In this document: one piece after another, positions 9,030 through 28,630 of the stretch
How the letters are laid out: every line of letters begins with the position of its first letter
How positions within the stretch are numbered: position 1 is the first letter of the stretch
Assembly: GCA_011048515.1 (NCBI GenBank)
Contig: DSDW01000135.1
Coordinates: forward strand, 1-48,384
Length of the DNA stretch: 48,384 nt
Direction of reading: 5' to 3'
DNA from: Campylobacterota bacterium
Lineage (GTDB): Bacteria > Campylobacterota > Campylobacteria > Campylobacterales > Sulfurovaceae
The notes under the pieces: model-generated
Database searches by the model: none
What the model saw: the letters and a program-made list of their open reading frames with translations, nothing else
Told to the model about the DNA's origin: nothing
Translations under genes and position numbers: made by a program

Positions 9030-9075
9030 GGTAAGTCCCTCTTTTTAAATTAGTAATCTTTTAACAGCTACTCGG

Positions 9076-9327
9076 CTAGGCCTTCTTGAGTATGCTGATG
9101 ATATAGATCAAAAACACAGCACCGATAACGGCCATAACGATAGCGCCCAATAATCCGCCTGTCGTTATGCCGAGCAAACCAAATAGATAGCCGCCCAGCA
9201 CTGCACCGACTATCCCTACGATCATATTGCCTATGAGACCAAATCCTCTTCCCTTTACTATGAGGCCGGCAAGCCAGCCTACCAGCGCACCGACTGCTAA
9301 AAATATGATTAAGCTAATGATATCCAT
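9076..9327 (-). CDS. GlsB/YeaQ/YmgE family (transglycosylase-associated) membrane protein
   Basis: An 83-residue, very hydrophobic, glycine-rich protein with three predicted membrane segments. It carries the family pattern L-V-G-W-L-A-G-L-I-V-K-G-R-G-F-G-L-I-G-N, then V-G-I-V-G-A-V-L-G-G. Family members are often stress induced; the molecular role is unknown. It lies upstream of mscL on the same strand. Confidence 0.9.
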   Translation of the reverse strand: MDIISLIIFLAVGALVGWLAGLIVKGRGFGLIGNMIVGIVGAVLGGYLFGLLGITTGGLLGAIVMAVIGAVFLIYIISILKKA

Positions 9328-9420
9328 GTTGACTCCTGTGTTGTTTTTTTATCTGTTATTACGTTTAAGTTATAACTTATGATTAAATATTATGATACCA
9401 TAAAATTTTACATCCCATGT

Positions 9421-9456
9421 ATCGGTGGAGTTTAACATCCTTGTAAACGTAATATA
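9421..9456 (+). repeat. Short intergenic repeat, copy 1
   Basis: TCGGTGGAGTTTAACATCCT then TGTAAACGTAATATA. A similar stretch lies at 9930-9966 (TCGGTGGGTTTAACCTCTTT then GCAAACTTAACATA), and a shorter match (CTGGAGTTTAACATCACTG) at 12282-12300. All are intergenic. The rest of 9328-9622 holds no gene. Confidence 0.5.
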
Positions 9457-9622
9457 TCATATGAATTCTCACGCAAAACAAGAGAACCTTAAAATGGTCA
9501 TACATTGAATACACGACTCGCTTATAACTTTTAAATTTTATTTGCAATTAATTTTTATTATGTAAAGATAGTTAGTGAGGTTGCGTTTTAAACGCCAGTG
9601 TTTTTGTGAAAAAGGACAATAG

Positions 9623-9871
9623 ATGAAGTTCAATACAAGAAGAGATTTTTTTAAATCCTTAACTGCTCTAGGCCTAATGAGCTTTGTGACAACCGCGGCT
9701 TATGCAAAAGGTTCAAAAGAGCTGTTTGAATATCAAGAGACCCCCAAAGACGGTAAAAGATGTAAAGAGTGTATGCACTTTCTTCCTGAAACAAATGAAT
9801 GTAAAGTGATTGAAGGTTCAATAACTCCGGAGGGGTGGTGCAGTTTGTATATCGAGGCTAAAACTGAGTAG
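9623..9871 (+). CDS. High-potential iron-sulfur protein (HiPIP) with Tat signal
   Basis: An 82-residue periplasmic electron carrier. The N-terminus T-R-R-D-F-F-K-S-L is a twin-arginine signal, cleaved near A-Y-A-K, so the protein is exported folded with its cofactor. Four cysteines at 47, 50, 60 and 73, in C-K-E-C...C...G-W-C, match the 4Fe-4S ligand pattern of HiPIPs. HiPIPs carry electrons to terminal oxidases or reaction centres in the periplasm. The start ATG 9623 has AAGGA 6 nt upstream. It stands alone between AT-rich spacers. Confidence 0.88.
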   Translation: MKFNTRRDFFKSLTALGLMSFVTTAAYAKGSKELFEYQETPKDGKRCKECMHFLPETNECKVIEGSITPEGWCSLYIEAKTE

Positions 9872-9929
9872 AAAAGAGCTCAGGAAGTCATCTTTGACAT
9901 TCCTGTCTCACTCCGTTCTATATCTTCTG

Positions 9930-9966
9930 ATTCGGTGGGTTTAACCTCTTTGCAAACTTAACATAC
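9930..9966 (+). repeat. Short intergenic repeat, copy 2
   Basis: Second copy of the repeat at 9421-9456, same orientation, about 75 percent identical by eye. It lies between the HiPIP and dodecin genes. Confidence 0.45.
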
Positions 9967-10093
9967 CAAAAAAACTTTATGCTGACGCTAATAAAATTAT
10001 ATTAATATTAAAACATTAATAAAAATTAAATTATTTGTAAATTAAAAGTAATAAGAGTATACTAAAAAACAAATTATTATAAAAGGAGTTATT

Positions 10094-10297
10094 ATGTCAA
10101 AAGTAGTTAAAGTAATCGAGATAATGGCAGAATCGAAAGAAAGCTGGGAGGACGCAGCGATGAATGCAATAAAAGAGGCATCCAGTACCGTTGATAATAT
10201 AAAATCTATTAACATATCCAATATGAGTGCCAAAGTTGATAAAAATAAGATCGTGAGATATCGCATCAATGCACAGATCTCTTTTGATGTCAATTAG
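10094..10297 (+). CDS. Dodecin family flavin-binding protein
   Basis: A 67-residue protein matching dodecins over its full length: V-V-K-V-I-E-I at the start, then S-K-E-S-W-E-D-A-A-M-N-A-I-K-E-A and a C-terminal R-Y-R-I-N-A-Q-I-S-F-D. Dodecins form hollow dodecamers that store flavin pairs stacked on a tryptophan (here in E-S-W-E-D). ATG 10094 with AAAGGAG upstream. The following coiled-coil gene starts 39 nt downstream and is probably co-transcribed. Confidence 0.92.
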   Translation: MSKVVKVIEIMAESKESWEDAAMNAIKEASSTVDNIKSINISNMSAKVDKNKIVRYRINAQISFDVN

Positions 10298-10336
10298 CAG
10301 TGTAATTATTCCAGATTATTAACGAGGAGAAGAATC

Positions 10337-10624
10337 ATGGGCATGAAGGAAGCATACGAACAGAAATTGCAGGCAAAATTAGATGAGTGGAGTGCGGATA
10401 TCGACAAACTCAAGGCAAAAGCTGACAGTGCAGAAGCCAATCTACAACTTGAATACTACAAGAAAATCGAGGAACTGCGTTCTATGCAGGAAACTGCTGC
10501 CGATAAACTTATCGAGCTAAAGGATGCTGGTGACGATACTTGGGAGGATATTAAGGCTGGTGTTGAGAGTACGTGGGACTCTCTTGGCAATGCATTGAAT
10601 TCATTTGCTTCGAGATTCAAGTAA
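10337..10624 (+). CDS. Small coiled-coil protein, probably stress related
   Basis: A 95-residue, highly charged, almost entirely helical protein: heptad-rich coiled coil over 5-75, then W-D-S-L-G-N-A-L-N-S-F-A-S-R-F-K. No signal or membrane segment. It resembles short bacterial coiled-coil stress proteins that stabilise other proteins or DNA, but no exact family is recognised. AGGAGA at the start and a 39-nt gap to dodecin suggest an operon. Confidence 0.8.
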   Translation: MGMKEAYEQKLQAKLDEWSADIDKLKAKADSAEANLQLEYYKKIEELRSMQETAADKLIELKDAGDDTWEDIKAGVESTWDSLGNALNSFASRFK

Positions 10625-10657
10625 ATATCATACTTGATTGATCGCAAGTTTTGTTTT

Positions 10658-10686
10658 CTCATTCTCATCGAGAAGATGAGAACGAG
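10658..10686 (+). terminator. Hairpin after the dodecin/coiled-coil unit
   Basis: CTCATTCTCATC (10658-10669) pairs with GATGAGAACGAG (10675-10686) around a 5-nt loop, with one G-U pair. No strong T tract follows, so termination is inferred from position. Confidence 0.45.
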
Positions 10687-10794
10687 TCATGGTTACGCTT
10701 ACACTTACTTCCTGGGAATCAGCTGTCAAATTCATCCATGCTTACTGCCGGTAGAGTTTTGAAAGTGATACCCAGGTGTCTACTTAATAAGGGT

Positions 10795-11469
10795 TCAATT
10801 GCTTGTATTGCCAAAGAAGCCATAAAAATAATAATAGAGTTGTCTCTCTTCGGTGCTATTGTTTTCCGGACCTTCGATCTGTAAAATAAAACGTTTAAAA
10901 TGATCATCACAGTGTGTTCCATCCCCCTGAATGATCAGTCTGTAACTCACCCCTGCGACCATATCGGGAGCAAAAATACCTGTGCCGTTGAGATCGTTCT
11001 CTATTTGTAGTTCTTTGTAGAGTGTGACACAGGATTCTTTTTTTTGTTCCAGATTGGTATCCATGCTTACTGAGGTTCCTTTTTCGGGAATTGACAAAAT
11101 CAATGAACCGACTCTCTTGTTGTTTTCCCGAAAATCGAATCTCCAATGTTGGTCGGATAGGGAGATCGAAATCTTATACTGGTCGGAGAATAGATTGTTC
11201 TCTTCCTGTGTATCGGGTCTATTGACACAAAATCCGGCCGTTTCTGCGCCTGGGCAGTTTGCATAGACTCTCTCCGGAAATTTGAGAGAGTGTATGAGGG
11301 TTTTTAAATTTTCTTTCGGTACGGTGACAGGTTTATTCCACGTCCCCGGTTCTACGCAGCAGGCACTGCTGTGTGCTTGTGTTGGGGATATGATCATCAA
11401 TAAAACAACAACTGCAATCGACATCACGCAGCTGTAGAGATAGCTGGTTTTCTTTTCTAAAATACCCAT
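10795..11469 (-). CDS. Secreted protein of unknown function
   Basis: A 224-residue protein with a signal peptide (hydrophobic V-M-S-I-A-V-V-V-L-L-M-I-I-S, cleavage near S-P-T-Q-A-H). The mature part starts with two adjacent cysteines (S-A-C-C-V-E-P-G-T-W) and has four more (N-C-P, F-C-V, S-C-V, H-C-D), suggesting a disulfide-stabilised beta-rich periplasmic domain. It ends in an odd tyrosine-rich stretch (Y-Y-Y-F-Y-G-F-F). Start ATG 11469 with AGGAGG 8 nt upstream. No family is recognised, and no operon partner is visible. 11470-11674 holds nothing I can support. Confidence 0.7.
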   Translation of the reverse strand: MGILEKKTSYLYSCVMSIAVVVLLMIISPTQAHSSACCVEPGTWNKPVTVPKENLKTLIHSLKFPERVYANCPGAETAGFCVNRPDTQEENNLFSDQYKISISLSDQHWRFDFRENNKRVGSLILSIPEKGTSVSMDTNLEQKKESCVTLYKELQIENDLNGTGIFAPDMVAGVSYRLIIQGDGTHCDDHFKRFILQIEGPENNSTEERQLYYYFYGFFGNTSN

Positions 11470-11674
11470 GTGACTTTCCTCCTCGTATAATGTGGATCTT
11501 TGGGTTCGTATCTTGGATATCAGCTTCTTCCTATCAGATATTGTAGCTTTTTTGGATTGAATGTTTCACTCTGTTTTAGAGTTCTTCTCTTTATTCCGGG
11601 GAATGGTGGAACGAGCAGGGAGATCCTTTGGATCTGGATGCAGATCGATACAAACGAATTTTCTATACAGAGAT

Positions 11675-12217
11675 CTACAGACTATCCGGGAGCTTTGAGC
11701 GCATCATTTCCCTTCTATCCAGCTTTCGCCCATCCACGATGAAGGTACCGTCACCGACGGCGTGAAGGGTGCGTTTCTCTTTGCGTGTGCTGTTGTAGTA
11801 AGCGGCGACGCCTTCAAGCACAACGATATTGTGCTTTTTGATGATGTCGGTCACTTTGCATTCTATGTTTGCCAGGCATTCTTTGATGAGGGGCGCTTTG
11901 ACATATTTTCCCTTCACCGGGGTCAGAGTGAACGTTTCAAATTTGTCCGTCTCTTTGCCTGAACAGGTCCCGATCCCAATGACTTTATCAAGCATGTCAA
12001 CCGTGGGGATCGCGATGACGCACTCTCTCTTTTTCTCAAGAGCGGCGAATGAATGGTTCCACGGGCCTGTGGTGATGGCGAAGATCGGAGTAAAGTCCAT
12101 CACCATAGTCCAAGAGATGGTCATGATGTTGTGCTTTTTCCCGTCGTCGGTGGTGACGAGCACGACCGGACCAGGTTCCATCAGAGTGAACGCTTTGTTC
12201 ATCTGCATTTCTTCCAT
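11675..12217 (-). CDS. Flavin reductase-like FMN-binding protein
   Basis: A 180-residue protein of the split-barrel flavoprotein family: P-G-P-V-V-L-V-T-T-D-D-G near the start, then N-I-M-T-I-S-W-T-M-V and F-A-I-T-T-G-P-W-N-H-S as the FMN-binding core. Such proteins reduce flavins with NAD(P)H or act as flavin-dependent oxidoreductases. The start ATG 12217 has AGGAGG 6 nt upstream. It stands alone next to the distal end of the integron array. Confidence 0.85.
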   Translation of the reverse strand: MEEMQMNKAFTLMEPGPVVLVTTDDGKKHNIMTISWTMVMDFTPIFAITTGPWNHSFAALEKKRECVIAIPTVDMLDKVIGIGTCSGKETDKFETFTLTPVKGKYVKAPLIKECLANIECKVTDIIKKHNIVVLEGVAAYYNSTRKEKRTLHAVGDGTFIVDGRKLDRREMMRSKLPDSL

Positions 12218-12351
12218 GGCAACCCTCCTGCTTTAGCGGATGCTACATTATAACGTAATGGTATAGAGATAGCAGCTGTCGCTGGAGTTTAACATCACTG
12301 ATAATTAGCAGTCGGTATACACTTTGTATGAGGAGATAGGGAGCGAGGGGG

Positions 12352-12397
12352 AAAAGCCGCCTGCGGGTTTTTGATTGGTCTGCTCTGATTTATTATA
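12352..12397 (-). repeat. Truncated terminal attC site (end of the cassette array)
   Basis: Reading leftward, the R double-prime side and loop (GACCAATCAAAAACCCGCAG) match attC at 14254-14325. The other half, with R-prime (GTTATGT), is missing. The core AAC has decayed to AAT. It follows directly after the zinc-ribbon cassette gene and marks the array end. 12218-12351 holds no gene. Confidence 0.7.
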
Positions 12398-12399
12398 GC

Positions 12400-12843
12400 C
12401 TATGGAAACGGTGGTTCTCCCAAGACCAAGGGCTTATATAGGAGCGCATATGCTGTATAAATTATGATCGTCGGAATAGCGATCAAGGCAAGTACGGCAC
12501 CGACTTTCGTCATATCCCCGCGACAATAGCTTTCATCGGCTTCTCGTAAAGGTGAAAGGAATGCAACCGACATAAAAAAGGCGATCATCAATACAACGGC
12601 TCCAAGTAAGGAAAAAACGAAATTTTGAAAAACTTGGAATAGTGCTATGGTAAAAAGAAAAAAGAGGCCGATAAGTACTAGATCGCTGTGTAACAGCAAA
12701 TCAATAAAAAGCCATCGGCTTTTCTTGATATTTTTTCCGCAATTGGTGCACTGGAAGCAGCGGCCATTTTTGTATTTCGATTTGCCAAAGAATATCCATT
12801 GATATGGAATTGTCTTTTCTTTACATCCTGGGCATTCTTTCAC
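12400..12843 (-). CDS. Integron cassette: zinc-ribbon membrane protein of unknown function
   Basis: A 147-residue protein from GTG 12843. The open frame extends to 12969, but that part is the upstream attC and the previous gene's end, so the GTG after AAGGA is the better start. The N-terminus holds a zinc ribbon of two C-x2-C pairs (C-P-G-C, then C-F-Q-C-T-N-C-G-K). Three or four membrane segments follow, with E-A-D-E-S-Y-C-R-G-D in a loop. Small zinc-ribbon membrane proteins are frequent orphan cassette products. Function unknown. Confidence 0.72.
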   Translation of the reverse strand: MKECPGCKEKTIPYQWIFFGKSKYKNGRCFQCTNCGKNIKKSRWLFIDLLLHSDLVLIGLFFLFTIALFQVFQNFVFSLLGAVVLMIAFFMSVAFLSPLREADESYCRGDMTKVGAVLALIAIPTIIIYTAYALLYKPLVLGEPPFP

Positions 12844-12857
12844 TTTTGTCCTTGTCG

Positions 12858-12926
12858 CTATAACGGTTGAGTTGAGAAATATTTGAGCCGCAGGGTCGAA
12901 TATTTCTCTCCAAGGTTTTGTTATAC
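12858..12926 (-). repeat. attC recombination site between the DUF3995 and zinc-ribbon cassettes
   Basis: Reading leftward: GTATAAC (core), then TTGGAGAGAAATATT, loop CGACCCTGCGGCTCA, AATATTTCTCAACTC and GTTATAG (core). The arms pair as in other attC sites here. The stop codon TAA of the DUF3995 gene (12921-12923) lies inside the core, and the next gene starts 15 nt beyond the other core. Confidence 0.8.
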
Positions 12927-13343
12927 CCTGTATGCCAAAATGGCAAATATAACACCTAATATCAAACACAATGGTGAAAAATATTTTGTACCATAAATTG
13001 CAAACTCTGTATCTTTTATTTTTTTGAAAAACCCAACAGCATTGAACTCACCTATTGCCCTTAATATAAAAATAGTAGATAAAAATATTCCACTATATAA
13101 ATAAAGATTACGATTTCCATTGACCGTAAAATCATAAAACTGTAAAGCATATGCAACATATGCAAAACTCATCAAAACAATACCAACTAAGAATGTTAAT
13201 GTTTTACTTGGATTTAATAATAATTTTCCATCTTTAGTCGGCAGGGCTTTATCTAAACCAATTTTTCCGCCGAAAGCCCAATAAATATGAAATAACCCTA
13301 TAAGGATTAATGTGAAAATTGTAATGATTGCTATAAAATCCAT
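12921..13343 (-). CDS. Integron cassette: DUF3995 family membrane protein
   Basis: A 140-residue protein with four predicted membrane helices (about 3-22, 48-72, 80-100, 118-138). The start I-G-L-F-H-I-Y-W-A-F-G-G is typical of DUF3995, a family common in cassettes and other accessory DNA. Function unknown. The start ATG 13343 uses an AAAGGAAC site that borders a half attC remnant (13350-13378). The stop codon lies in the next attC. Confidence 0.85.
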   Translation of the reverse strand: MDFIAIITIFTLILIGLFHIYWAFGGKIGLDKALPTKDGKLLLNPSKTLTFLVGIVLMSFAYVAYALQFYDFTVNGNRNLYLYSGIFLSTIFILRAIGEFNAVGFFKKIKDTEFAIYGTKYFSPLCLILGVIFAILAYRV

Positions 13344-13349
13344 TTTGTT

Positions 13350-13378
13350 CCTTTATTGGCTCCTCTGATTTGTTAGGA
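13350..13378 (-). repeat. Half attC remnant
   Basis: Leftward CCTAACAAATCAGAGGAGCC then AATAAAGG matches one arm of the local attC sites. The other arm is absent, and the DUF3995 start follows at once. This points to a deletion or an empty cassette upstream of that gene. Confidence 0.65.
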
Positions 13379-13395
13379 ATTGGGTTGTCTATAAC

Positions 13396-13461
13396 TTATA
13401 ACGTTTAAAATGATCTAATTGCTCGCAGGGTAACTTATTTCTCTCCAATGATTTCTTAGAT
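13396..13461 (-). repeat. attC site with a decayed core, after the 252-residue cassette gene
   Basis: Leftward: AAGAAATCATTGGAGAGAAA, TAAGTTACCCTGCGAGCAAT, TAGATCATTTTAAACGTTAT. The R-prime core GTTATAA is intact, but the invariant AAC of R double-prime reads AAG. Confidence 0.7.
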
Positions 13462-13475
13462 TCAATCTTTATTTC

Positions 13476-14234
13476 CTACCTTTGATTTTGCAAGTTTTTT
13501 TTCTCGTCCCACCTCTCCGGAGACTGTGAAAGCAGTTGCGATATTCGCTCGCCAAATCGTTGGATCGACGCATTTCTAACCAAGCCATATCGATTCACCA
13601 TAAATGGGATTATAGCAACTACTGAACCCTGGCTGTTCACACCCCAAAATAGATCCTGATCATCGATGACTTCGTGAGTTAAATCGGCCCCCTCATCATA
13701 AAAGGCAGACTGAAACTCTTTGATGTAGGTTTTTCCCAAGCACAATACCAGCTTCGGCGCAGCCTGCGCTGTCCACTTCCGTATTTGAGGGAATCGGAAC
13801 GCCGAACACCATTCAAGGTAATCAGCTTTGCTCTGGAAGCCTGTGATAGTTGAAAAGTTATCGTGCCACTGCGCATGACTGGTATCTTTGAACCCGATCG
13901 GGTAGAGATTCATTTTAAAGTAACCACGTCTACCATCAACAAACGGCTGAACATGCTCTGCGAACCTTTTGTACTCTGATGTGGAACCGCCGTCGATCAC
14001 GGAAAGTATCTTCATAACTTGCCAGTTAAAGATGTAGGCAAGGTTTTCCTTCCAGTCGGTATACCCTCTTGGCGGGTGATTCACATCCTCTTCCATATGG
14101 GTCGTCAGTGACTCTGGAGTATGTCCGCCACCCCATTCTATGCCGCAAACCCAAATTGCCGGACTCCCAATATTTCCACCGTCACAGCCAGAGTATCGCA
14201 GTCCCCACTTTTCAAAGTCTCTCGATACTTCCAT
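13476..14234 (-). CDS. Integron cassette: unknown soluble protein, possibly UDG-fold
   Basis: A 252-residue soluble protein. It has I-W-V-C-G-I-E-W-G-G-G near 27-37, K-M-N-L-Y-P-I-G-F near 107-115, P-K-L-V-L-C-L-G-K near 160 and V-V-A-I-I-P-F-M-V-N-R-Y-G near 206. This order (strand-GIxWGG, NLxP, P-LVLCLG, strand) loosely resembles the uracil-DNA glycosylase superfamily fold, but the His-Pro-Ser motif is absent; treat this as a guess. ATG 14234 with GGAGACAG upstream. It is the largest gene of the array, and its stop is 15 nt before a decayed attC. Confidence 0.72.
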   Translation of the reverse strand: MEVSRDFEKWGLRYSGCDGGNIGSPAIWVCGIEWGGGHTPESLTTHMEEDVNHPPRGYTDWKENLAYIFNWQVMKILSVIDGGSTSEYKRFAEHVQPFVDGRRGYFKMNLYPIGFKDTSHAQWHDNFSTITGFQSKADYLEWCSAFRFPQIRKWTAQAAPKLVLCLGKTYIKEFQSAFYDEGADLTHEVIDDQDLFWGVNSQGSVVAIIPFMVNRYGLVRNASIQRFGERISQLLSQSPERWDEKKNLQNQR

Positions 14235-14253
14235 TCTGTCTCCATTGTGGTAC

Positions 14254-14325
14254 TACTAACGTTTAAAATGAGCAATCAAAAAGCCGCACGCGGGTTTTTG
14301 ATTGGTCTCCTCTGATTTGTTATGT
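14254..14325 (-). repeat. attC recombination site after the 67-residue cassette gene
   Basis: Leftward: ACATAACAAATCAGAGGAGA, CCAATCAAAAACCCGCGTGC, GGCTTTTTGATTGCTCATTT, TAAACGTTAGTA. Both cores (ATAAC, GTTAG) and the arms (CAATCAAAAA / TTTTTGATTG) are intact. Confidence 0.85.
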
Positions 14326-14328
14326 GTA

Positions 14329-14532
14329 CTACTGAGAAAGTTTCAGATACGCAATTACTAAGCCGCATACGGTAAATACTGAAGTCCAGATCCACTTCCA
14401 ATGAACTACATAAAAATCAGCAAATGTATGTGCTGTTTTCGATGTCCAATGACGTTTGTAGCGAATACCAGGCAAAACACCTTCAAGGTAATACTCTTCA
14501 CCGATCCACCATTTTTTAATTTTCTCTAGCAC
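14329..14532 (-). CDS. Integron cassette: small single-pass membrane protein
   Basis: A 67-residue protein from GTG 14532: Trp-rich N-terminus (K-K-W-W-I-G-E-E-Y-Y) and one C-terminal membrane helix (I-W-T-S-V-F-T-V-C-G-L-V-I-A-Y-L). The cassette is about 312 bp, flanked by two good attC sites, which supports it as a real gene despite its size. Function unknown. Confidence 0.6.
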   Translation of the reverse strand: MLEKIKKWWIGEEYYLEGVLPGIRYKRHWTSKTAHTFADFYVVHWKWIWTSVFTVCGLVIAYLKLSQ

Positions 14533-14565
14533 TCTTACCCTTTATACAACTTGGAAATACTTGGC

Positions 14566-14634
14566 ACATAACGTTTAAAATGAGCCAATAAATTGCCAGC
14601 AGGGTAATTTATTGGCTCCACTGATTTGTTATGT
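14566..14634 (-). repeat. attC recombination site after the 62-residue cassette gene
   Basis: Leftward: ACATAACAAATCAGTGGAGC, CAATAAATTACCCTGCTGGC, AATTTATTGGCTCATTTTAA, ACGTTATGT. The arms GAGCCAATAAATT / AATTTATTGGCTC are perfectly inverted (13 bp). Nearly identical to the site at 14892-14960. Confidence 0.9.
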
Positions 14635-14677
14635 ACTTCTCAGTATTATTCAAAGCAAAATAATTTTATGAGCATTA

Positions 14678-14866
14678 TTAATTATTTTTATTGCTGTTTC
14701 TGTTATATTCCATATAAAGTAAAATCAAAGCCCAAGGAATTCCACCCAACAATACACCAGTAGGAGGGAATATAGCATAAGGTAAACTCAAAGCCCAAAT
14801 AATTACTCTTTGTTTTGTATTTAGCCCCACATACCAATTATTTAATTTTTGAAACTTTTCTTTCAT
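14678..14866 (-). CDS. Integron cassette: small two-pass membrane protein
   Basis: A 62-residue protein with two hydrophobic segments (V-I-I-W-A-L-S-L-P-Y-A-I-F and V-L-L-G-G-I-P-W-A-L-I-L-L-Y) and a polar tail. ATG 14866 with AGGAG 7 nt upstream. It sits alone in a cassette of about 326 bp. Function unknown. Confidence 0.68.
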   Translation of the reverse strand: MKEKFQKLNNWYVGLNTKQRVIIWALSLPYAIFPPTGVLLGGIPWALILLYMEYNRNSNKNN

Positions 14867-14891
14867 TTTTAACTCCTATTTAATTTTTTAT

Positions 14892-14960
14892 ACATAACGG
14901 TTAAAATGAGCCAATAAATTGCCAGCAGGGTAATTTATTGGCTCCACTGATTTGTTAGCC
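14892..14960 (-). repeat. attC recombination site after the first cassette gene
   Basis: Leftward: GGCTAACAAATCAGTGGAGC, CAATAAATTACCCTGCTGGC, AATTTATTGGCTCATTTTAA, CCGTTATGT. The same perfect 13-bp arms as the site at 14566-14634. The TAG stop of the first cassette gene touches the core. Confidence 0.9.
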
Positions 14961-15661
14961 TAGATGACTAACATCCTTGACTTTTTTGTTCTTACTGTTG
15001 CCATTCCTTCACAAGCTGGAATTGTAAGCACGCCAAATTTATACGACAATGTTCCTTGATACCTGTCACCCAATGGTATTGTTCCTATTAGTTTAATAAC
15101 AAAGCGACCAATTTTTTCTCCAACACTCGTATTTTGCTCAAATATTGTATCCATGCTTAATGTCACCATGACTATATTGCAAAATACACCTGAACCACCA
15201 CCATTACTCCAAGTCTGCAATAAGTGCATACCACTGAATGATGTACCTAAGTACTGATATGTAAAAGTACCTTCTTCGTATGATGATGTAATCAATGGGT
15301 AGCTATCTTTAGAATCCTTAACTGCAACTTCTCCGAAATAACGATTGCTCTTATTTGAGTCAGTGATATTCACGGCTACAACTTGATTTCCACTATCACT
15401 CAACCAGCCAATGAGGTCTTCAATAATTCTAGGGTTAATAAATTCATTGTTTATAAATGAATATTTAGAAGAATCAAAGTCCCGTATTAGTTTAGCCTTT
15501 GGAGTTAAGGTAAATATTTTTTTGCCAATGAGACCATGAACGTCATCTCGGAAAAACCCCGCAACTGTCATTATAAGAACAACTACTGGTTCTGGGCTTT
15601 GATCAATTAGAAGCCAAACGATGCAGCCTAAGAAGGCTAGAATGTTTAATGTTTTATACAA
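14960..15661 (-). CDS. First integron cassette: membrane-anchored protein of unknown function
   Basis: A 233-residue protein from TTG 15661, preceded by AAGGAG at a 7-nt distance with an in-frame stop just upstream, so TTG is the probable start. N-terminal hydrophobic segments (L-N-I-L-A-F-L-G-C-I-V-W-L-L-I and V-V-V-L-I-M-T-V-A-G-F-F) precede a soluble, serine- and glycine-rich domain (W-S-N-G-G-G-S-G-V-F). No family is recognised. As the cassette nearest attI it should be the most recently captured and the best transcribed from Pc. Confidence 0.72.
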   Translation of the reverse strand: MYKTLNILAFLGCIVWLLIDQSPEPVVVLIMTVAGFFRDDVHGLIGKKIFTLTPKAKLIRDFDSSKYSFINNEFINPRIIEDLIGWLSDSGNQVVAVNITDSNKSNRYFGEVAVKDSKDSYPLITSSYEEGTFTYQYLGTSFSGMHLLQTWSNGGGSGVFCNIVMVTLSMDTIFEQNTSVGEKIGRFVIKLIGTIPLGDRYQGTLSYKFGVLTIPACEGMATVRTKKSRMLVI

Positions 15662-15679
15662 ATTCTATTCTCCTTGAGA

Positions 15680-15700
15680 GGCTAACTATTTATTAGAGGA
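15680..15700 (-). other. attI-like core site at the integrase-proximal end of the array
   Basis: Leftward, AATAAATA then GTTAGCC: a GTT core at 15680-15686 just before the first cassette gene, where integron cassettes insert. Beyond it, CAATGTCCTCTAT (15707-15719) is matched in inverse by ATAGAGGACAGTG (15901-15913), possible integrase contact sites. The exact attI limits cannot be set by eye. Confidence 0.55.
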
Positions 15701-15737
15701 ACACAATGTCCTCTATCCCCTTTATTGAAGTAGAAGT

Positions 15738-15766
15738 AGTATACAAAAAATGTCTGGCTATTTCAA
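15738..15766 (-). promoter_or_regulatory. Pc cassette promoter
   Basis: On the minus strand, TTGAAA (15761-15766), a 17-nt spacer, and TATACT (15738-15743) form a near-consensus sigma-70 promoter directed into the first cassette, with a start near 15731. Location between intI and attI is that expected of Pc. Confidence 0.7.
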
Positions 15767-15942
15767 TAAATATTACAAAATGCCATATTTTTCCTATTTT
15801 TTGTAAATATCCATAGAATGATAAAAACTGCTTATGTCCTTTTAGTCGGATATGAGCCAATATCCGGACAAAATGTTCCCCTATCTGTCAGATAGAGGCA
15901 ATAGAGGACAGTGTATCCTGCTATTTTTTAAGGGGAAATAGT

Positions 15943-16041
15943 ATGGAAGTCAAGAAAAAACTATTGGATATCATTCGTGACAAAATTCGCTTTAAACACT
16001 ATAGTATCAAGACAGAAAAATCCAAGCTCCAGAGAATGTGA
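15943..16041 (+). pseudogene. intI: Integron integrase IntI, N-terminal fragment
   Basis: From ATG 15943 (AAGGGG 7 nt upstream) the frame reads 27 codons of an IntI N-terminus, including L-L-D-I-I-R-D-K-I-R-F and K-H-Y-S-I-K-T-E-K-S, equivalent to L-D-x-L-R-x-x-I-R-x-x-H-Y-S-x-R-T-E-Q in known IntI proteins. At 16024 a repeat element begins, and the frame ends five codons later at TGA (16039-16041). The gene is divergent from the cassettes, as in true integrons. A matching C-terminal remnant lies 4.2 kb downstream on the same strand. The middle of the integrase, with the Arg and His catalytic residues, is not found. Confidence 0.85.
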
Positions 16042-16210
16042 AAGAACCTGTAATAATTTGGAAGTGGAGGCTTTAGCCCCACTGAAATTGATAAATATGG
16101 CAATTTTTCAAGCCTCAGATAGCATAAATGGGTAATTTATGAGGGAAAAATACATTAATCCGGGGCTAAAGCCTCCGGTTCCGTGAGTTTTTTCACAGTC
16201 TCTGGAGCTT
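16024..16210. repeat. MITE/BIME-like inverted repeat element, copy 2, inserted in intI
   Basis: A 187-bp element bounded by perfect 12-bp inverted ends AAGCTCCAGAGA / TCTCTGGAGCTT. Inner arms are TGTGAAAGAAC, GGAAGTGGAGGCTTTAGCCC and, at the right, GGGGCTAAAGCCTCCGGTTC, GTGAGTTTTTTCACA. The central part is AT rich without a gene. It is related to copy 1 at 6814-6981, and it truncates the integrase reading frame. Confidence 0.85.
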
Positions 16211-16828: not shown

Positions 16829-16843
16829 AGCTATTTCTCCCAT

Positions 16844-16863
16844 CCCCAAGCTCGAGCTTGGGG
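16844..16863. repeat. 20-bp perfect palindrome next to the transposase remnant
   Basis: CCCCAAGCTCGAGCTTGGGG is fully self-complementary. A related half-palindrome (GCAAGTTCGAGCTTGGGGGA) lies on the other side of the transposase remnant at 17169-17188, and AGCTTGGGGACGAGGGGAAG also occurs at 16206-16225 (one G shorter than at 17178-17198). These are REP-like flanks. Confidence 0.65.
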
Positions 16864-16885
16864 GATGCATACTTCATGCATGATC

Positions 16886-17104
16886 TCACCAGAACCAATC
16901 GATTTCCAGTAAACCATCCATACCCTCATAGTTCCTTGCAGAACTGTATCTCCAGTCGCAGATACCATCGAGATATCCCGCTTCACCGGGTTGGCATGAA
17001 TATATTGTATCTTATTTATCATCATAGCATCGGTTTGTATCAGTTGCGGATGGTGTCCTTCTTCCCATGTAAGGAGTGTAGCATACCTTGCGATCATAGA
17101 TAAC
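16886..17104 (-). pseudogene. REP-associated tyrosine transposase (RAYT, Y1 family) remnant, frameshifted
   Basis: The C-terminal part of a Y1/RAYT transposase. The upstream frame gives W-E-E-G-H-H-P-Q-L-I-Q-T-D, then I-Q-Y-I-H-A-N-P-V-K-R. At the GGG run near 16977-16979 one base is missing. The frame then shifts to G-Y-L-D-G-I-C-D-W-R-Y-S-S-A-R-N-Y-E-G, ending L-E-I-D-W-F-W-stop at 16886. The N-terminal region with the HxH metal motif is gone. RAYTs mobilise flanking palindromic REP sequences, and palindromes indeed flank this remnant. 16829-17230 holds nothing else coding. Confidence 0.78.
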
Positions 17105-17168
17105 TGAGGTCTACCATTCACGTATGCACCCCAAGGGCACTTCTTCCCTTACGGTCAGGGCGCATCCC

Positions 17169-20345: not shown

Positions 20346-21026
20346 CTACTTCGTCACCACCTCGATATACCCCACCGGGCGAATATGCAGAATGTTCTCC
20401 TCGATCGTGACGACATCGCCGTCGAGTTCTATGAGATTGTGGTGGTTTTGCAGGTCAATGGTCATCTCCCGGACCTCTCCGTAGAAGCTTCCAAACCTTT
20501 TGATGAAACGGAAGGGAGTGAAGATAAAGAACTTTCGCGGGCTCATCAGCATGAAAGGGGTCAGGAGCAGGTGTGCCGGCAGGAGGAGGAGTACGGCAAG
20601 CAGGTACTTCAGTGGTCCGTGTTCGATCCATCCGAAACGCAATGTCTCTGAGAGGATGATATGCTGCAGGTCGCCCATATTGCCGGCAGAGAACAAAAAG
20701 AGCTCATCGTTGAGTTTGAAGAGATGGTGTTTCTCTTTGCCGGGGATCTCTCCTCTGGCAAGCAGATCGAGTACCTCTTCTATCTTCGGGGTTTGGTGTA
20801 TCTTGGCGACGAGGTTGAACGAACCGGTGGGGTTGAGGATGAAAACAGGGGTGTTATCCAGATCGTGTATCTGCTGGAGTGTACGGCGGATGCGCCCATC
20901 CCCGCCGGTGATGATCACATAGTCATACCGCTCGATATCGTGCTGTTGGGTGATCTCCGAGATATCGATAGAGGTGATATCCAGTCCCGTATGTCTGATC
21001 TCTTTGCCGATAGAGAGTATTTGCAT
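20346..21026 (-). CDS. Diacylglycerol kinase-like (YegS/lipid kinase family) protein
   Basis: About 226 residues from ATG 21026 (AAAGG 7 nt upstream). The nucleotide-binding motif of lipid kinases is G-G-D-G-R at 41-45, where G-G-D-G-T is usual. It is followed by N-P-T-G-S-F-N in place of P-x-G-T-x-N-D, and a beta-rich C-terminal half with one hydrophobic stretch (L-L-A-V-L-L-L-L-P-A-H-L-L-L). It is shorter than typical family members, because the N-terminal N-P-x-S/A-G strand is absent. Likely a divergent or non-canonical lipid or sphingosine-kinase-fold enzyme. Divergent from the pqi operon, so a membrane-lipid role is plausible. Confidence 0.75.
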   Translation of the reverse strand: MQILSIGKEIRHTGLDITSIDISEITQQHDIERYDYVIITGGDGRIRRTLQQIHDLDNTPVFILNPTGSFNLVAKIHQTPKIEEVLDLLARGEIPGKEKHHLFKLNDELFLFSAGNMGDLQHIILSETLRFGWIEHGPLKYLLAVLLLLPAHLLLTPFMLMSPRKFFIFTPFRFIKRFGSFYGEVREMTIDLQNHHNLIELDGDVVTIEENILHIRPVGYIEVVTK

Positions 21027-21070
21027 CAATAGCCTTTAGATATTTGATCTATTTGGTTACAATTATAGCT

Positions 21071-21709
21071 ATGAAACTTGAAAATGAAGATGCGCTTGAT
21101 CGACTTATCATCTGCCCCCACTGTCACACCCTCCATGAGGAGATCCATATCGCAGATGGTACGAAGGCATGCTGCGTAAAATGCGGGAGTGTGCTCTACC
21201 GGTATGACTCCAGACTGATCGATCAGGGGCTGGCGCTTTCCCTCACTGCACTGATATTTTTTGCAGTGGCGAACATTTTTCCGGTGGTACAGATCGAGAT
21301 GCTGGGAAACGAACAGTTCATTACGATACCCAGAACCTTTCTCTCTCTGATCGAGAACGGCTTTTATTTTGTGGGGCTGTTTTGCGGTGTTGTGCTGTTC
21401 CTGTTCCCTCTGGCGATCTTCGCACTCTATGTGCTGCTTTTTCTGCTTTTAAAGTTGAAAAAAGGAGAGGAGCTGAGCCGGAGGCTTCTGGTCTGGCTCT
21501 CCTATATGAAGCCGTGGAGCATGAACGATATCTTTCTGATCAGTATCCTGGTGGCACTGGTCAAACTGATCGGCTATGCCCAGATACATATGGGGGTGGC
21601 ATTTTGGGCTTTGGTGGTGTTTGTACTTTTGGATATCTATATGACAAGGTATGTCAAACTCAATGAGATATGGATGCTGCGAAAACAGATCTTTATGGAG
21701 AAACAATGA
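21071..21709 (+). CDS. pqiA: Paraquat-inducible protein A-like (PqiA half), first copy
   Basis: A 212-residue inner-membrane protein from ATG 21071. Residues near 15-45 form a zinc ribbon C-P-H-C...C-V-K-C-G-S-V-L-Y-R, followed by four membrane helices and the family signature K-P-W-S-M-N-D-I-F-L-I-S-I-L-V-A-L-V. E. coli PqiA carries two such repeats in one chain; here each repeat is a separate gene. It starts the operon pqiA-pqiA-pqiB-pqiC, which forms an inter-membrane lipid-transport system. The divergent spacer to the lipid-kinase gene is only 44 nt. Confidence 0.88.
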   Translation: MKLENEDALDRLIICPHCHTLHEEIHIADGTKACCVKCGSVLYRYDSRLIDQGLALSLTALIFFAVANIFPVVQIEMLGNEQFITIPRTFLSLIENGFYFVGLFCGVVLFLFPLAIFALYVLLFLLLKLKKGEELSRRLLVWLSYMKPWSMNDIFLISILVALVKLIGYAQIHMGVAFWALVVFVLLDIYMTRYVKLNEIWMLRKQIFMEKQ

Positions 21710-22305
21710 TAGAGGTCGATGAAAAAGATCTGATACGCTGTCCGGTGTGCGAAGCGGTCAATATCGATAAAGGCAAGGAGAACAGGTGCCGCCGCTGCGG
21801 ATCCCCCATCTATCGGTACACCCATTTCAAGACAGAAAAAAGCTGGGCATACCTGATCACAGCGATCATCGCCTATATCCCCGCGAACCTTTATCCCATA
21901 CTTGTGACCACCCAGTTCGGAAAAACCGAAGAGAGTACGATCGTAGGGGGGATCATACTGATGTGGGAATCAGGCTCCTATCCTATCGCGGCAGTGATCT
22001 TTTTTGCCTCGATCCTGGTGCCTATCATGAAGTTTTTGATTTTGATTTATCTGCTTATTAATGTAAAATACTCAATAGGAAAAGATAAAAAGATCAATAA
22101 GCACAAACTCTACTATATGACTGAAGTGGTCGGCCCCTGGTCGATGATCGATGTGTTTGTCGTGGCGATACTCGCGGCATTGATACATATGCACAATGTC
22201 CAGATCATTGCAGGAACGGCAGCGACGGCATTTGCACTTTCCGTCTTTTTTACCCTTTTGGCAGCACAGGCTTTCGATGAAAGCCTTATCAAGGAGAACC
22301 ATTAA
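21706..22305 (+). CDS. pqiA: Paraquat-inducible protein A-like (PqiA half), second copy
   Basis: 199 residues from ATG 21706, which overlaps the previous stop by 4 nt (ATGA) with GGAG upstream; the longer frame to 21670 lacks this. Zinc ribbon C-P-V-C...C-R-R-C-G-S-P-I-Y-R-Y, then four helices and G-P-W-S-M-I-D-V-F-V-V-A-I-L-A-A-L-I. It corresponds to the second repeat of E. coli PqiA. Stop and the pqiB start overlap by 1 nt. Confidence 0.9.
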   Translation: MIEVDEKDLIRCPVCEAVNIDKGKENRCRRCGSPIYRYTHFKTEKSWAYLITAIIAYIPANLYPILVTTQFGKTEESTIVGGIILMWESGSYPIAAVIFFASILVPIMKFLILIYLLINVKYSIGKDKKINKHKLYYMTEVVGPWSMIDVFVVAILAALIHMHNVQIIAGTAATAFALSVFFTLLAAQAFDESLIKENH

Positions 22306-23921
22306 TGTCTAACAATATCCCCGAGGTAGAAGCATCTACGAAGTTCAACTTTGTCACTTCTATATGGATCGTACCTTTTGCGGCGCTTTTGATCGCTCTT
22401 TGGCTGGCATATCAGTACTACTCGGAACTGGGGCCGGAGATCAAGATCGTATTTCCCAACAACGAAGGACTGCAGGCGGGACAGAGCGTCATCAAGTACA
22501 GAGATGTCACGATAGGGAAAGTCACGAGGATCCATCTGGAAAATGATGGTTCCCAGGTGGCGGTCTATGCACGTATGGAGAAGACGGCTGAACCTTTTTT
22601 GAATGAACATACGAAGTTTTGGATCGTCAAACCCGAAGTGGGAATGGGAGGCATAAGCGGGCTTGACACGCTGATCTCCGGAACCTATATCAATGTCTAT
22701 GCGCAAAAAGGAGAAGAGTCCAGAACGGTGTTTACCGGGCTTCCCTACATCTACAGGTCGGATAAAGACGGCGAGTATTTTCACCTCAATGCACCCGAAG
22801 GCTACAATGTCGCTCAGGGTACCCCGATCTTTTTTAAACATATCAAAGTGGGTGAAGTCGAGTACGTCACCGTCTCGCTGGATGGCCGCGGTATCGATTT
22901 TTATGTCTATATAGAGAAAGAGTATGTTCCCTATGTCCATACGGATTCAAAATTTTGGGTCAGGAGTGCTTTTGATGTAGATATCTCCAATGGCAGGCTC
23001 AATGTCAATATCGCGCCGCTGTCCCATCTGATACAGGGGGGTATCTCATTCTCCTCTTCGGGGCAGGATGCAAGCAGGCCGGTACCCAGCGGGCATCTCT
23101 TTACCCTCTATAAAAACAACAATGTTGCCGAAGAGAAAAAGATCGGAAAGGGGGGCAGGGCGATCAAAAGATATGAACTTCATGTGCTTGATTCGGTTGC
23201 CAAACTCAAGCAGGAAGCTGCTGTGCGCTACGAGGGGTATGAGGTAGGGCAGGTGACAAAGGTAATGACCGCCTATAATCCGCTCACCCATAAAATGACG
23301 GGAAAGGTCTATCTGCAGATAGATACCTCGTTTTTTGAAAGTGAGAAGAATCAAAATATCACAGGGGAGATGAATTTCGAAAAAGCGGTCGAGGAAGGGC
23401 TGCGTGCAAAGATCACCCCAACCGACCCGATCACGGGCATACTCTATGTGGATCTGGTTTTCAAAGAAAACCTGGCTTATACGGCGATCCTTCAGGGTGA
23501 AAAATATCCGATTCTGCCTTCTGTCAGTGATCAGAGCAGCGATCTGATGGGTCAGTTCAATGTTTTGGTGGCTCGCCTCAATACGCTGCTTGAGTCTACC
23601 AATCAGATGGTGGATGAAAATGCAAAACCGCTGCATGAGATCGTGGCCAACCTCAATGATACGATGAAAAATATCAATACCCTGGTAGCACAGAAAGAGA
23701 CACAGGATCTGCCAAAATCACTGGATCAAAGCGTAAAAAAACTTACGCAGACACTTGAAAGTGCCAACGATGTGCTTAAGGGATATGGAGAAGATTCGTT
23801 AATGAACCGGCAGCTTGCACAGACCCTGAAAGTGGTCACTGAGACCTCGGAAGAGATGACCAAAGTACTGAGAATGATCAAGCGAAAACCAAACGCACTG
23901 ATATTTGGAGAAGAAGAGTAA
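22305..23921 (+). CDS. pqiB: PqiB-type MCE-domain lipid transport protein
   Basis: 538 residues: one N-terminal membrane anchor (I-W-I-V-P-F-A-A-L-L-I-A-L-W-L), then three MCE domains (about 45-145, 160-240 and 285-395) marked by G-L-Q-A-G-Q-S-V-I-K-Y-R-D-V-T-I-G-K-V, G-T-P-I-F-F-K-H-I-K-V-G-E-V and V-R-Y-E-G-Y-E-V-G-Q-V. A long C-terminal helix (about 400-530) follows. In E. coli, PqiB hexamers form a tube across the periplasm for phospholipid movement. Overlaps pqiC by 1 nt. Confidence 0.92.
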   Translation: MSNNIPEVEASTKFNFVTSIWIVPFAALLIALWLAYQYYSELGPEIKIVFPNNEGLQAGQSVIKYRDVTIGKVTRIHLENDGSQVAVYARMEKTAEPFLNEHTKFWIVKPEVGMGGISGLDTLISGTYINVYAQKGEESRTVFTGLPYIYRSDKDGEYFHLNAPEGYNVAQGTPIFFKHIKVGEVEYVTVSLDGRGIDFYVYIEKEYVPYVHTDSKFWVRSAFDVDISNGRLNVNIAPLSHLIQGGISFSSSGQDASRPVPSGHLFTLYKNNNVAEEKKIGKGGRAIKRYELHVLDSVAKLKQEAAVRYEGYEVGQVTKVMTAYNPLTHKMTGKVYLQIDTSFFESEKNQNITGEMNFEKAVEEGLRAKITPTDPITGILYVDLVFKENLAYTAILQGEKYPILPSVSDQSSDLMGQFNVLVARLNTLLESTNQMVDENAKPLHEIVANLNDTMKNINTLVAQKETQDLPKSLDQSVKKLTQTLESANDVLKGYGEDSLMNRQLAQTLKVVTETSEEMTKVLRMIKRKPNALIFGEEE

Positions 23922-24472
23922 TGAAGAGAAATATTGTATTGGCTATGTTGGTTCTTATGATGACAGGATGTGCGACAAAGAGTCACTACTATGTGCTCTC
24001 TACCGCAACACAGCCGTCCGATGTCTACCGATCCGCCAAAAGTATCGGCGTTTCGCAGGTGATCCTGCCAAGTTATATGGACAAGCGCAAATTGACCATA
24101 GCCCATTCAGGCAATCAGGTCGCTCAGCTTGATTCGGTGCTGTGGGCAGAAGATCTCGATATCGGCCTGACCCAGCGGCTGATCAGTTTTTTGCAAAAGA
24201 AATTCGACCAGCCCAATGTGTTTGCTTACCCCTGGGGTGTAGAGAGACAGCCCGACATTACGGTAAAGCTACAGCTCAATCGTTTCCTGGCACAGGGAAA
24301 TACGGTCTATCTGGATGCAAGCTATTCGATCATGAATATGAGAAATAAAAAGAGTCACGCGTATCTTTTCAATACCGCACTTAAAACCGGTTCCGAACCT
24401 GCTGCTATAGTCGATACAATGGATAGTGCATTCGGTCAGCTGGAAGAGGATATCGCAGAGAAGATCAAATGA
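23921..24472 (+). CDS. pqiC: PqiC-like outer membrane lipoprotein
   Basis: 183 residues with lipobox M-M-T-G-C17. The mature part matches the ABC-transport auxiliary/PqiC family: Y-Y-V-L-S near the start, I-G-V-S-Q-V-I-L-P-S-Y-M-D-K then Q-L-D-S-V-L-W-A-E-D-L-D, and alternating strands. PqiC docks the PqiB tube at the outer membrane. Last gene of the pqi operon. Confidence 0.88.
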   Translation: MKRNIVLAMLVLMMTGCATKSHYYVLSTATQPSDVYRSAKSIGVSQVILPSYMDKRKLTIAHSGNQVAQLDSVLWAEDLDIGLTQRLISFLQKKFDQPNVFAYPWGVERQPDITVKLQLNRFLAQGNTVYLDASYSIMNMRNKKSHAYLFNTALKTGSEPAAIVDTMDSAFGQLEEDIAEKIK

Positions 24473-24606
24473 TTTTATGTCAAAATGGGGCCGTCAGCTC
24501 CCGGGAGAGATGCCTCCGTGATGTATCACTTTAAACGTTGTTTAATATTATATGATATTATTATGCTACTGTTTTAACAGATTTGAAAGCAAAAAGGTAT
24601 TCCTAA

Positions 24607-25629
24607 ATGTCAGTAAAGTATTTTATTATTTTGATGCTAACAACGGTAACACTGGTGGCGCAGGCCACTGAGACGGAAAAAATATACGGTATTCAGTCAG
24701 GATTGGTTGAATATGAGATCTATGGCGGAGGCGTTGTGACGCCGGAGTGCAACTTGTCGATAGAGGGAAATGAAAAACTCTCTTTTAAAGAGTGGGGCGA
24801 TGTACGTATAGAAGAGATGGAGCGCAAGGAGACGCTTATTGGTACGCTCTACAGTATAGAGAAAGAAAAGACGCTGAAAAAAAGCGAAAAAAATACTCTC
24901 TACACGGTAGATTTTCAGAATGAACGCGTCATTACAACAAACCTTCTGGAAGGCGATATCGGTCAGGTTGATCTGAGCCGTATGGAGAAGGCCGGTACGA
25001 TGAATGTGGCATCACTGGATTGCGAACTCTGGGAAGATAGCAGCAGAAAAGTGTGCCTTTATCAGGGGACCGTGCTGTTGGATGAGAAGCGTTATCTGGG
25101 ATTGGTCTACGGCAAACGGGCAAACTATGTCAATTTTGATCTCAATCTCTCGGAGGAGGATTTTATGCTTCCCGAATATCCCCTCAAAGAAGATCTTCTG
25201 GTGAGAAATACGATCACAACGACCCAAACCTATAAATCAGAAACGATCTCGGACAAGATCATCAGTGCCAAGGAGTCCGATATCAACGCTACCGACAAAA
25301 ACTACGCAAAGACGTTCAACGGGGTTTTTAATGAGCTGTTCGAAAAAGAGAAAAAGTATCTCCCTCTTTTTTTGAAAGCGATGCGCAATACAAGGGCTTG
25401 CCTGCATACTGCACAGTCCCCAGCCGAAGCGAATGAGTGTCTGATGGGGATCAGAGAGCTTAAATCGGAGTATAACGGCAACGATGACCATACGGATATG
25501 CTGCTGATGGAGGAGAGCAAAGAGAAGATGCTGGATGACCTGGACATAAAGATCAGGGAGATGAAGATCAGAATTCCATGCATCAACAGAGCAGCAAATA
25601 TGACAGATCTTTCTGCCTGTATGAAGTAG
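24607..25629 (+). CDS. Exported protein of unknown function
   Basis: 340 residues with a signal peptide (I-I-L-M-L-T-T-V-T-L-V-A-Q-A). The mature protein starts I-Y-G-I-Q-S-G-L-V-E-Y-E-I-Y-G-G-G, a pattern seen in periplasmic proteins whose first strands form a beta-sandwich. The second half (about 225-340) is a charged helical domain with four cysteines (A-C-L, E-C-L, P-C-I, A-C-M) that could pair. No known family. The next gene, a radical SAM enzyme, begins 4 nt after its stop, so the two are likely co-transcribed, though nothing shows that one acts on the other. Confidence 0.72.
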   Translation: MSVKYFIILMLTTVTLVAQATETEKIYGIQSGLVEYEIYGGGVVTPECNLSIEGNEKLSFKEWGDVRIEEMERKETLIGTLYSIEKEKTLKKSEKNTLYTVDFQNERVITTNLLEGDIGQVDLSRMEKAGTMNVASLDCELWEDSSRKVCLYQGTVLLDEKRYLGLVYGKRANYVNFDLNLSEEDFMLPEYPLKEDLLVRNTITTTQTYKSETISDKIISAKESDINATDKNYAKTFNGVFNELFEKEKKYLPLFLKAMRNTRACLHTAQSPAEANECLMGIRELKSEYNGNDDHTDMLLMEESKEKMLDDLDIKIREMKIRIPCINRAANMTDLSACMK

Positions 25630-25633
25630 ACGT

Positions 25634-26500
25634 GTGAAGTTTTATCGTATTTATATCGAACTTACCAATGTCTGCGGGCTCTCATGCAGCTTTTGTCCTA
25701 CAAAAAACCTCCCTTCCAAACAGATGGACCTGGAGTTTTTCGAGTCGGTGATCTCGCAGGCAAAAGCCTATACCAAAGAGATCGCATGTCATGTGGTAGG
25801 TGACCCTATGACACTATCCAACCTCTCGGATTATCTTGATATCATACACAGACATGGGCTTAGAGCGATGCTTACCACCAGTGGGTATTTTCTCAAAAAG
25901 CAGAGCTATATGACACTTTTTCATCCTTCCGTAAAGCAGATCAATATCTCGCTCAATGCGTTCAACAAGAATGATACCAGGCTTACGTTTGAACAGTATA
26001 TCACTCCCGTTCTGGCGCTTTGCGAGGAGAAGCAGAAGCAGGGCAAAGAGCTCTTTATCAATCTTCGGGTGTGGAACCTTGATGAGATGATGAGCGAACG
26101 CAGTTTCAATGAAACACTCTTTGAGAGACTCTCCAAAGCATTTAAGGTATCACTCTCTCTTGACGATATCTACCTGGAACGTCCAAAATCGATCAGGCTG
26201 GCATCAAAAGTACTGCTGCATTTTGATGAGTATTTTGAGTGGCCCTCTCTGAAGAATCAGGTTTATGGTGACGGTACCTGCCAGGGGCTTCAGTCGCATA
26301 TCGCAGTACTGGCTTCAGGGAAAGTGGTTCCGTGCTGTCTTGATTGCGATGGCGTGATAGTGCTGGGAGACCTGCATGAAAACACTCTTGAATCGATCCT
26401 CAAGGGTAGACGCGCGCAGGAGATGCTCACCGGTTTCAAATCGGGGAAAGCGGTTGAAGAGCTGTGCCAGAAGTGCAGCTACAAAGAGAGGTTTAACTGA
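25634..26500 (+). CDS. Radical SAM protein with SPASM-like C-terminus
   Basis: 288 residues from GTG 25634. The 4Fe-4S/SAM motif is C14-x3-C18-x2-C21 in N-V-C-G-L-S-C-S-F-C-P-T. The C-terminal part has extra cysteines (G-T-C-Q-G-L, V-V-P-C-C-L-D-C-D-G, E-L-C-Q-K-C-S-Y) that fit a SPASM or twitch auxiliary cluster domain. Proteins of this kind modify peptides or mature enzymes by radical chemistry. Substrate unknown; the exported protein immediately upstream is a candidate partner by position only. Confidence 0.85.
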   Translation: MKFYRIYIELTNVCGLSCSFCPTKNLPSKQMDLEFFESVISQAKAYTKEIACHVVGDPMTLSNLSDYLDIIHRHGLRAMLTTSGYFLKKQSYMTLFHPSVKQINISLNAFNKNDTRLTFEQYITPVLALCEEKQKQGKELFINLRVWNLDEMMSERSFNETLFERLSKAFKVSLSLDDIYLERPKSIRLASKVLLHFDEYFEWPSLKNQVYGDGTCQGLQSHIAVLASGKVVPCCLDCDGVIVLGDLHENTLESILKGRRAQEMLTGFKSGKAVEELCQKCSYKERFN

Positions 26501-26555
26501 GTGAAGAATGAAGAGTTTTTGGAAGGATAGTTTTATCGCTTATAAAGTGTGAAAC

Positions 26556-26585
26556 GAGAGAGGTTTGGGCACCTCTCTTGTTGGT
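26556..26585. terminator. Terminator between the convergent radical SAM and SYLF genes
   Basis: AGAGAGGT-TTGGGC-ACCTCTCT (26557-26578) followed by TGTTGG; a perfect 8-bp stem in a convergent gap, so it may serve both genes. Confidence 0.65.
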
Positions 26586-27124: not shown

Positions 27125-27216
27125 CGATACATCCTTTATGTTCATGATTCAAATATGAATAATTATAACAAATTAATGTAAATGTAAATGCAAATAATAA
27201 TGTATATAATTGCACC

Positions 27217-27501: not shown

Positions 27502-27688
27502 TCTGATGAGAAAAACTGCACTTACTAATGAGTTTTTTTTCACAGAAAACCCATTTTTTTCAAATATTTATCAAATCTGCTCTATTTATCAACAATTTTT
27601 CTATAAAAAAAATATTTTAAATCAGTATTATTTATAATTTAAATGAAGGGGGAAGAGACCCCTCGCATTTCAATCAAAAGGAAAGAGA

Positions 27689-28483: not shown

Positions 28484-28488
28484 TCATT

Positions 28489-28530
28489 TTCTCCGTTAGA
28501 CTGCTTCTTGTGTAACGGAGAATGCTCTTC
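28489..28530 (+). terminator. Terminator of the carbonic anhydrase gene
   Basis: TTCTCCGTTA (28489-28498) and TAACGGAGAA (28513-28522) form a perfect 10-bp stem with a 14-nt loop, 5 nt after the stop; the T-rich stretch TGTTTTTC follows at about 28531. Confidence 0.72.
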
Positions 28531-28630
28531 TGTTTTTCTAAAATGTCCAGATGGCTTTTTGAGCAAAAATCATAAACTAGGCACCATTTCGCTATACTAT
28601 ACACAAAATATTGATAGGGAATGACATACT

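Follow-up and report, generated by a model that had tools for sequence, protein, structure and literature searches.

An integron array that has probably lost its integrase gene in a Sulfurovum-like bacterium

The window (the whole 48,384-nucleotide stretch of DNA analyzed here) very probably contains the cassette array of a sedentary chromosomal integron, carried by a Sulfurovum-like bacterium, from which the integrase has been lost. We put the probability of this reading at roughly 93%. Under this reading, the integrase IntI would formerly have taken up circular cassettes through recombination between attI at 15684-15686 and the folded bottom strand of their attC sites (the + strand here), and the array would have grown leftward from attI. 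The intI gene would later have been cut after codon 27, where a REP-type repeat now stands, and its remainder is absent. The leftovers would be attI, a Pc-like promoter directed at the array, six cassettes, and attC sites that have decayed to different degrees. Now the array is most likely static in cis: its first, promoter-proximal cassettes are probably expressed from the putative Pc, and its attC sites would be usable only by IntI supplied in trans. We infer the past recombination from the attC and attI sites and from cassette turnover. Since the array is bordered by the attI region and by an intI stub, we interpret the locus as a decayed integron rather than as cassettes stranded at random.

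The attI region, the putative promoter and a broken integrase gene

A 5' stub of intI with 27 homologous codons, MEVKKKLLDIIRDKIRFKHYSIKTEKS, lies to the right of the array and diverges from it (15943-16023, + strand). In tblastn, 26 of its 27 residues are identical to IntI of L034 and L043, and its DNA is 90% identical to L034 over 81 nt. The L034 IntI scores 422.6 bits with TIGR02249, the NCBI integron integrase model, and the matched Sulfurovum IntI proteins all score >410 bits. About the first tenth of intI is left in the window. The stub's frame continues into foreign sequence and reaches a stop at 16041, and this 27-codon stub is all that stands in the place of a functional tyrosine recombinase with the IntI additional domain. 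A REP/MITE-type repeat with inverted ends is found where intI breaks off (16027-16203; inverted arms 16022-16047/16187-16212); C29 has a 91% copy of this repeat, and other parts of the genome have partial ones. A fragment of a REP-associated tyrosine transposase (16831-17121; NF047646, 5.7e-06) is also present beside the broken intI.

The attI/intI intergenic region (15684-15942, minus strand) was recognized by its identity to L034/L050 and by the junction it shares with them. From junction to intI start it is 89% identical to both, and positions 15683-16023 are 89% identical to L050 (JACXUO010000050.1), a Campylobacterales genome with an intact IntI. When IntI loci are aligned, conservation runs from the intI start to AACTATTTATT at 15684, while the cassette side is different in every genome. 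On this alignment evidence, the point where conservation ends is the attI crossover. The recombination junction falls at AAC 15684-15686, where the minus strand reads ...AATAAATAGTT, and this attI beside intI is conserved with the IntI-bearing relatives. The original prediction had described the cassettes as orphans, which is incomplete: it missed the attI region, the Pc-like promoter and the intI stub to the right of the array.

A Pc-like cassette promoter, TTGAAA-N17-TATACT, was detected by a consensus match in a promoter scan (15766-15738, minus strand, pointing into the array). The scan matches the consensus only, and about 1.7 such sites are expected by chance in the region. Six related loci have the same -10 box, TATACT, and a near-identical -35 box. 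Together, the features follow the order of an integron: a divergent intI, then attI and the Pc-like promoter, then the array.

The palindrome GGACA-N3-TGTTC occurs upstream of intI (15866-15878, + strand), with a second copy (15699-15711) beside attI. Many Sulfurovum integrons carry GGACA-N3-TGTYC about 73 and about 33 bp upstream of intI (40 bp apart), for instance at 294-306 and 334-346 in L054; upstream of the intI genes of relatives it stands at about -73 and/or -33, and some Sulfurovum integrons have a further copy beside the attI junction. We considered LexA/SOS control of intI through this palindrome and rejected it: the genome-wide count is 12 vs 10 for the reversed-pattern control, and no regulon is visible. 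As the palindrome is at chance level elsewhere in the genome, it looks integron-specific and is perhaps a site for IntI or for a dedicated regulator.

The tenth of the genome that is unassembled could also contain the gene for an intact IntI acting in trans on attI and the array, in which case the integron would still be active. The assembly is 90.1% complete and fragmented into 171 contigs, some of which (C14, C115) have attC arrays at their ends, and it could therefore lack an intact intI that the genome does have. Two of the attC sites are nearly identical and well folded, and the relative L050 carries IntI beside rpiB, possibly a second locus. We nevertheless consider an active integron rather unlikely. 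A TIGR02249 search of this 90.1% complete assembly returned no IntI over the cut-off; the best matches to the IntI model are weak and Xer-like, and like ones occur in 14 out of 14 control genomes. In addition, one attC site has no stem and two are halved, which fits little selection for mobility.

The same locus in related genomes

The integrase-less integron that we favor occupies a position shared with other genomes. Contig C106 of G127 aligns with 9071-12349 of the window to the left of the array and with 20347-28820 to the right, and between these flanks it has an attI of its own (95% identity over 116 bp), a single attC and genes that differ from those of the window. Contig C11 of G069 carries a flavin reductase gene, a different insert, attI and a methyltransferase gene, in the same order as the window. 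Neither genome has kept intI at this locus, and only about 95-115 bp with the putative Pc and attI are kept in both. The first gene after attI differs in all three genomes, and the cassettes are entirely different. Because the flanks and attI are the same and the genes are different, we conclude from these sequences that the three genomes share one chromosomal integron, with complete turnover of its cassettes. A location common to related species and a homogeneous, lineage-specific attC family are the marks of a sedentary chromosomal integron, and both are found here. The window retains intI sequence that G127 and G069 have lost, which means that the gene disappeared in two or more steps. In both relatives, too, the broken side of attI is next to REP-type sequence, and a second integron of G127 (C86) has an intI broken after about 85 residues.

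Clusters of attC sites without an integron integrase are known as CALINs (Cury et al., described in PMC8618304), and they have been listed for Sulfurovum sp. NBC37-1 (PMC10295459, Table 1). With at least two attC sites and no intI nearby, the array belongs to this class. A CALIN might form in place, through off-target insertion of cassettes by an IntI encoded elsewhere, where there never was an integron. Such formation has been proposed (PMC8618304), and other attC clusters of this genome (C14, C115 and C30) show no attI. For the present array we regard it as highly improbable, given that attI and the intI stub stand beside the array in the canonical divergent arrangement and that G127 and G069 still have attI at the orthologous locus. 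Like a CALIN, the window has several attC sites with cassettes and no functional intI; unlike one, it keeps attI, a Pc-like promoter and 27 intI codons. With these in place, the route, namely the loss of intI, is directly readable.

Two other known systems are comparable with this decayed integron. The chromosomal integron at ilvD in Xanthomonas, with an inactivated intI (PMC12444791), likewise has a fixed chromosomal locus common to several species, cassettes that differ between species, and an intI lost or truncated in different lineages. It belongs to another phylum; here the insertion locus lies between flavin reductase and methyltransferase genes, attI and the putative Pc stay after near-total loss of intI, and REP elements adjoin the breaks. 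Pseudo-integrons, defined by intI pseudogenes (Nemergut et al. 2008, PMC2426708), likewise have an integrase gene that is broken. Most of the pseudogenes counted there carried frameshifts or stops, whereas here only about the first tenth of intI is left. CALINs, pseudo-integrons and the Xanthomonas ilvD integron are direct precedents, and the window is an unusually legible and well-preserved case of a known system. Integrons of Campylobacterota are barely described: the papers found offer a single line of a review and a few rows of tables. In this locus, traceable through three species, flanks and attI are constant, cassettes are wholly different and the integrase is gone in each, which makes it a natural record of a sedentary integron losing its integrase and keeping its genes.

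The least expected feature is that the putative Pc and attI were spared while intI was deleted. Homology ends at 15802 (C69), 15795 (G127:C106), 15778 (G069:C11) and 15776 (C147) in four shortened, intI-less attI copies. All four lose homology 10-36 bp upstream of the -35 box (15766) and still have the putative Pc; the junction is retained in three of them, and the fourth runs out at the end of its contig. This clustering of deletion ends upstream of Pc is a lead and not a result, because copies without Pc would easily go undetected and the four may not be independent of one another. It raises the tentative idea, which we hold to be doubtful, that selection retains the locus in the Sulfurovum lineage as an integrase-less promoter and docking site: repeated intI deletions would end a short way upstream of Pc and leave Pc and attI intact, which would keep captured cassettes expressed and might still let an integrase from another locus or cell dock new ones. 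The locus makes selection on Pc and attI after intI loss testable. The copy on C147 (L007, 673-2364) is a second attI-like remnant that lacks intI; after it come a probable HNH-type gene (no Pfam match), an Mrr-type restriction endonuclease gene and two degraded attC sites.

The attC sites

The minus strand carries five complete and two half attC sites at 12350-14959, between genes that all run leftward. We trained a covariance model on four of the window's own sites and ran it genome-wide. These four are site 1 (14893-14959, E 2.2e-16), site 2 (14567-14633, 4.2e-17), site 3 (14255-14324, 8.3e-17) and site 5 (12859-12925, 4.0e-13). They are the strongest of the five complete sites, with genome-wide E values of about 1e-13 to 1e-17, and the decayed site 4 (13397-13460), which has lost its stem, reaches 1.3e-6. 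One half site, with R''/L'' only, lies directly before the DUF3995 cassette gene (13352-13377), and the terminal site (~12350-12397), which is without its R' half, abuts a dispersed repeat. The model matched 15 places in the genome at E<=1, seven of them in the window (the four training sites, the decayed site and the two halves) and the others on contigs C14, C30, C55, C115 and C147.

The intact sites read TAAC-AAA-TCAGTGGAGCC...GGCTCATTTTAAAC-GTTA, which we take to be the classical attC plan plus one extra base in the left L box. They are arranged as R''-L''-(variable)-L'-R', are bounded by TAAC/GTTA, and have both an unpaired spacer and an extrahelical base in L''. The original prediction had proposed 13-bp inverted arms; arms are indeed present, but the best ones measure 16 bp. 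It had also proposed that the sites share AACAAATCAG, which is exact in four of the seven and occurs as variants in the remaining ones. These four exact copies in the window compare with 0.25 expected, and four or more were obtained in 0 out of 100 shuffles. A 22-nt left-arm pattern has 9 matches genome-wide and the reversed pattern has none.

Folding was compared with shuffled sequences. The bottom (+) strand gave z-scores of -4.3 (site 1), -6.7, -5.4 and -5.2 in four of the five complete sites, and in each of these four it folds better than the other strand; for site 4 the MFE is 0. In 31 of 34 related sites taken from Sulfurovum-like genomes, the bottom strand folds more stably than the top one. 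The arms of one site pair better together than with the arms of other sites (mean score 11.5 vs 7.6), paired positions co-vary more than in shuffles, and compensatory changes maintain the pairing in related sites. The repeats thus combine an imperfect inverted repeat, complementary R''/R' and L''/L', extrahelical bases and a better-folding bottom strand, and by these sequence features they are genuine integron recombination sites. The covariance model, the folds and the count of AACAAATCAG all bear out the five complete and two partial sites of the original prediction. The pair at 14566-14634 and 14892-14960, described there as almost identical, differs at a few positions only.

The attC family of the window was found in 92 of the 175 genomes of the bacterial family, and the homogeneity proposed for it in the original prediction is supported. 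An IntI over the curated TIGR02249 cut-off was found in 36 of the 175, so arrays without integrase are common. In other Sulfurovum genomes, the same attC family adjoins IntI genes; together with the attC geometry and the shared direction of the genes, this supports the proposed integron-cassette layout. The named records are mostly Sulfurovum and other Campylobacterales, and the assignment to Campylobacterota also holds. Neither attC nor attI patterns were found in the viral contigs searched.

There is hardly any chance that the repeats are REP or transposon ends or belong to a transcribed RNA: a fragment of a REP transposase and repeats of the REP type do lie close by, but the REP repeat is a different sequence, the Rfam scan of the window matched no family, the geometry is that of attC, the sites recur in arrays in many genomes of the family (beside IntI in several), and repeats mainly outside cassette contexts were not seen.

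Cassette genes and the 3' boundary

The six cassette genes are all on the minus strand. Gene 1 (14960-15661, 233 aa) has GGAG upstream of its start and no confident family, and genes 2 (14678-14866, 62 aa) and 3 (14329-14532, 67 aa) have no family. Gene 4 (13476-14234, 252 aa) was found only in its own genome among the 175 genomes of the family. Its remote homologues, at 22-31% identity, are on alpha- and betaproteobacterial plasmids, and we found no PDB relatives of its protein. Gene 5 (12921-13343, 140 aa) encodes a DUF3995 membrane protein (Pfam PF13160, 3.3e-28) with relatives in six other genomes; two copies, in G134, are within attC arrays. Gene 6 (12400-12858), whose start is uncertain, encodes zinc-ribbon-like cysteines and membrane segments. 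Genes 4 and 5, the two tested, are patchy in distribution. A PADLOC search for defense genes among the cassettes gave one very weak match only (13.4 bits). The sites separate the genes one by one, as first described, except that the half site at 13352 comes immediately after the decayed site at 13397, with no gene separating them.

At its 3' boundary the array ends at a dispersed repeat of about 110 bp (12236-12349, minus strand), which stands upstream of the flavin reductase gene and is present five times in the genome. This repeat lies exactly at the 3' end of two attC arrays, on C2 and C14 (L009 7887-7997). We rejected it as a general integron part, as copies on C71, C29 and C59 have no adjoining attC.

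On C30 (L047, 444-2138), an attC follows an SGNH/GDSL hydrolase gene, beside acetyltransferase and rpiB genes. rpiB also adjoins intI in L050 and in G127:C86, and because of these neighbors it may mark a second integron locus.
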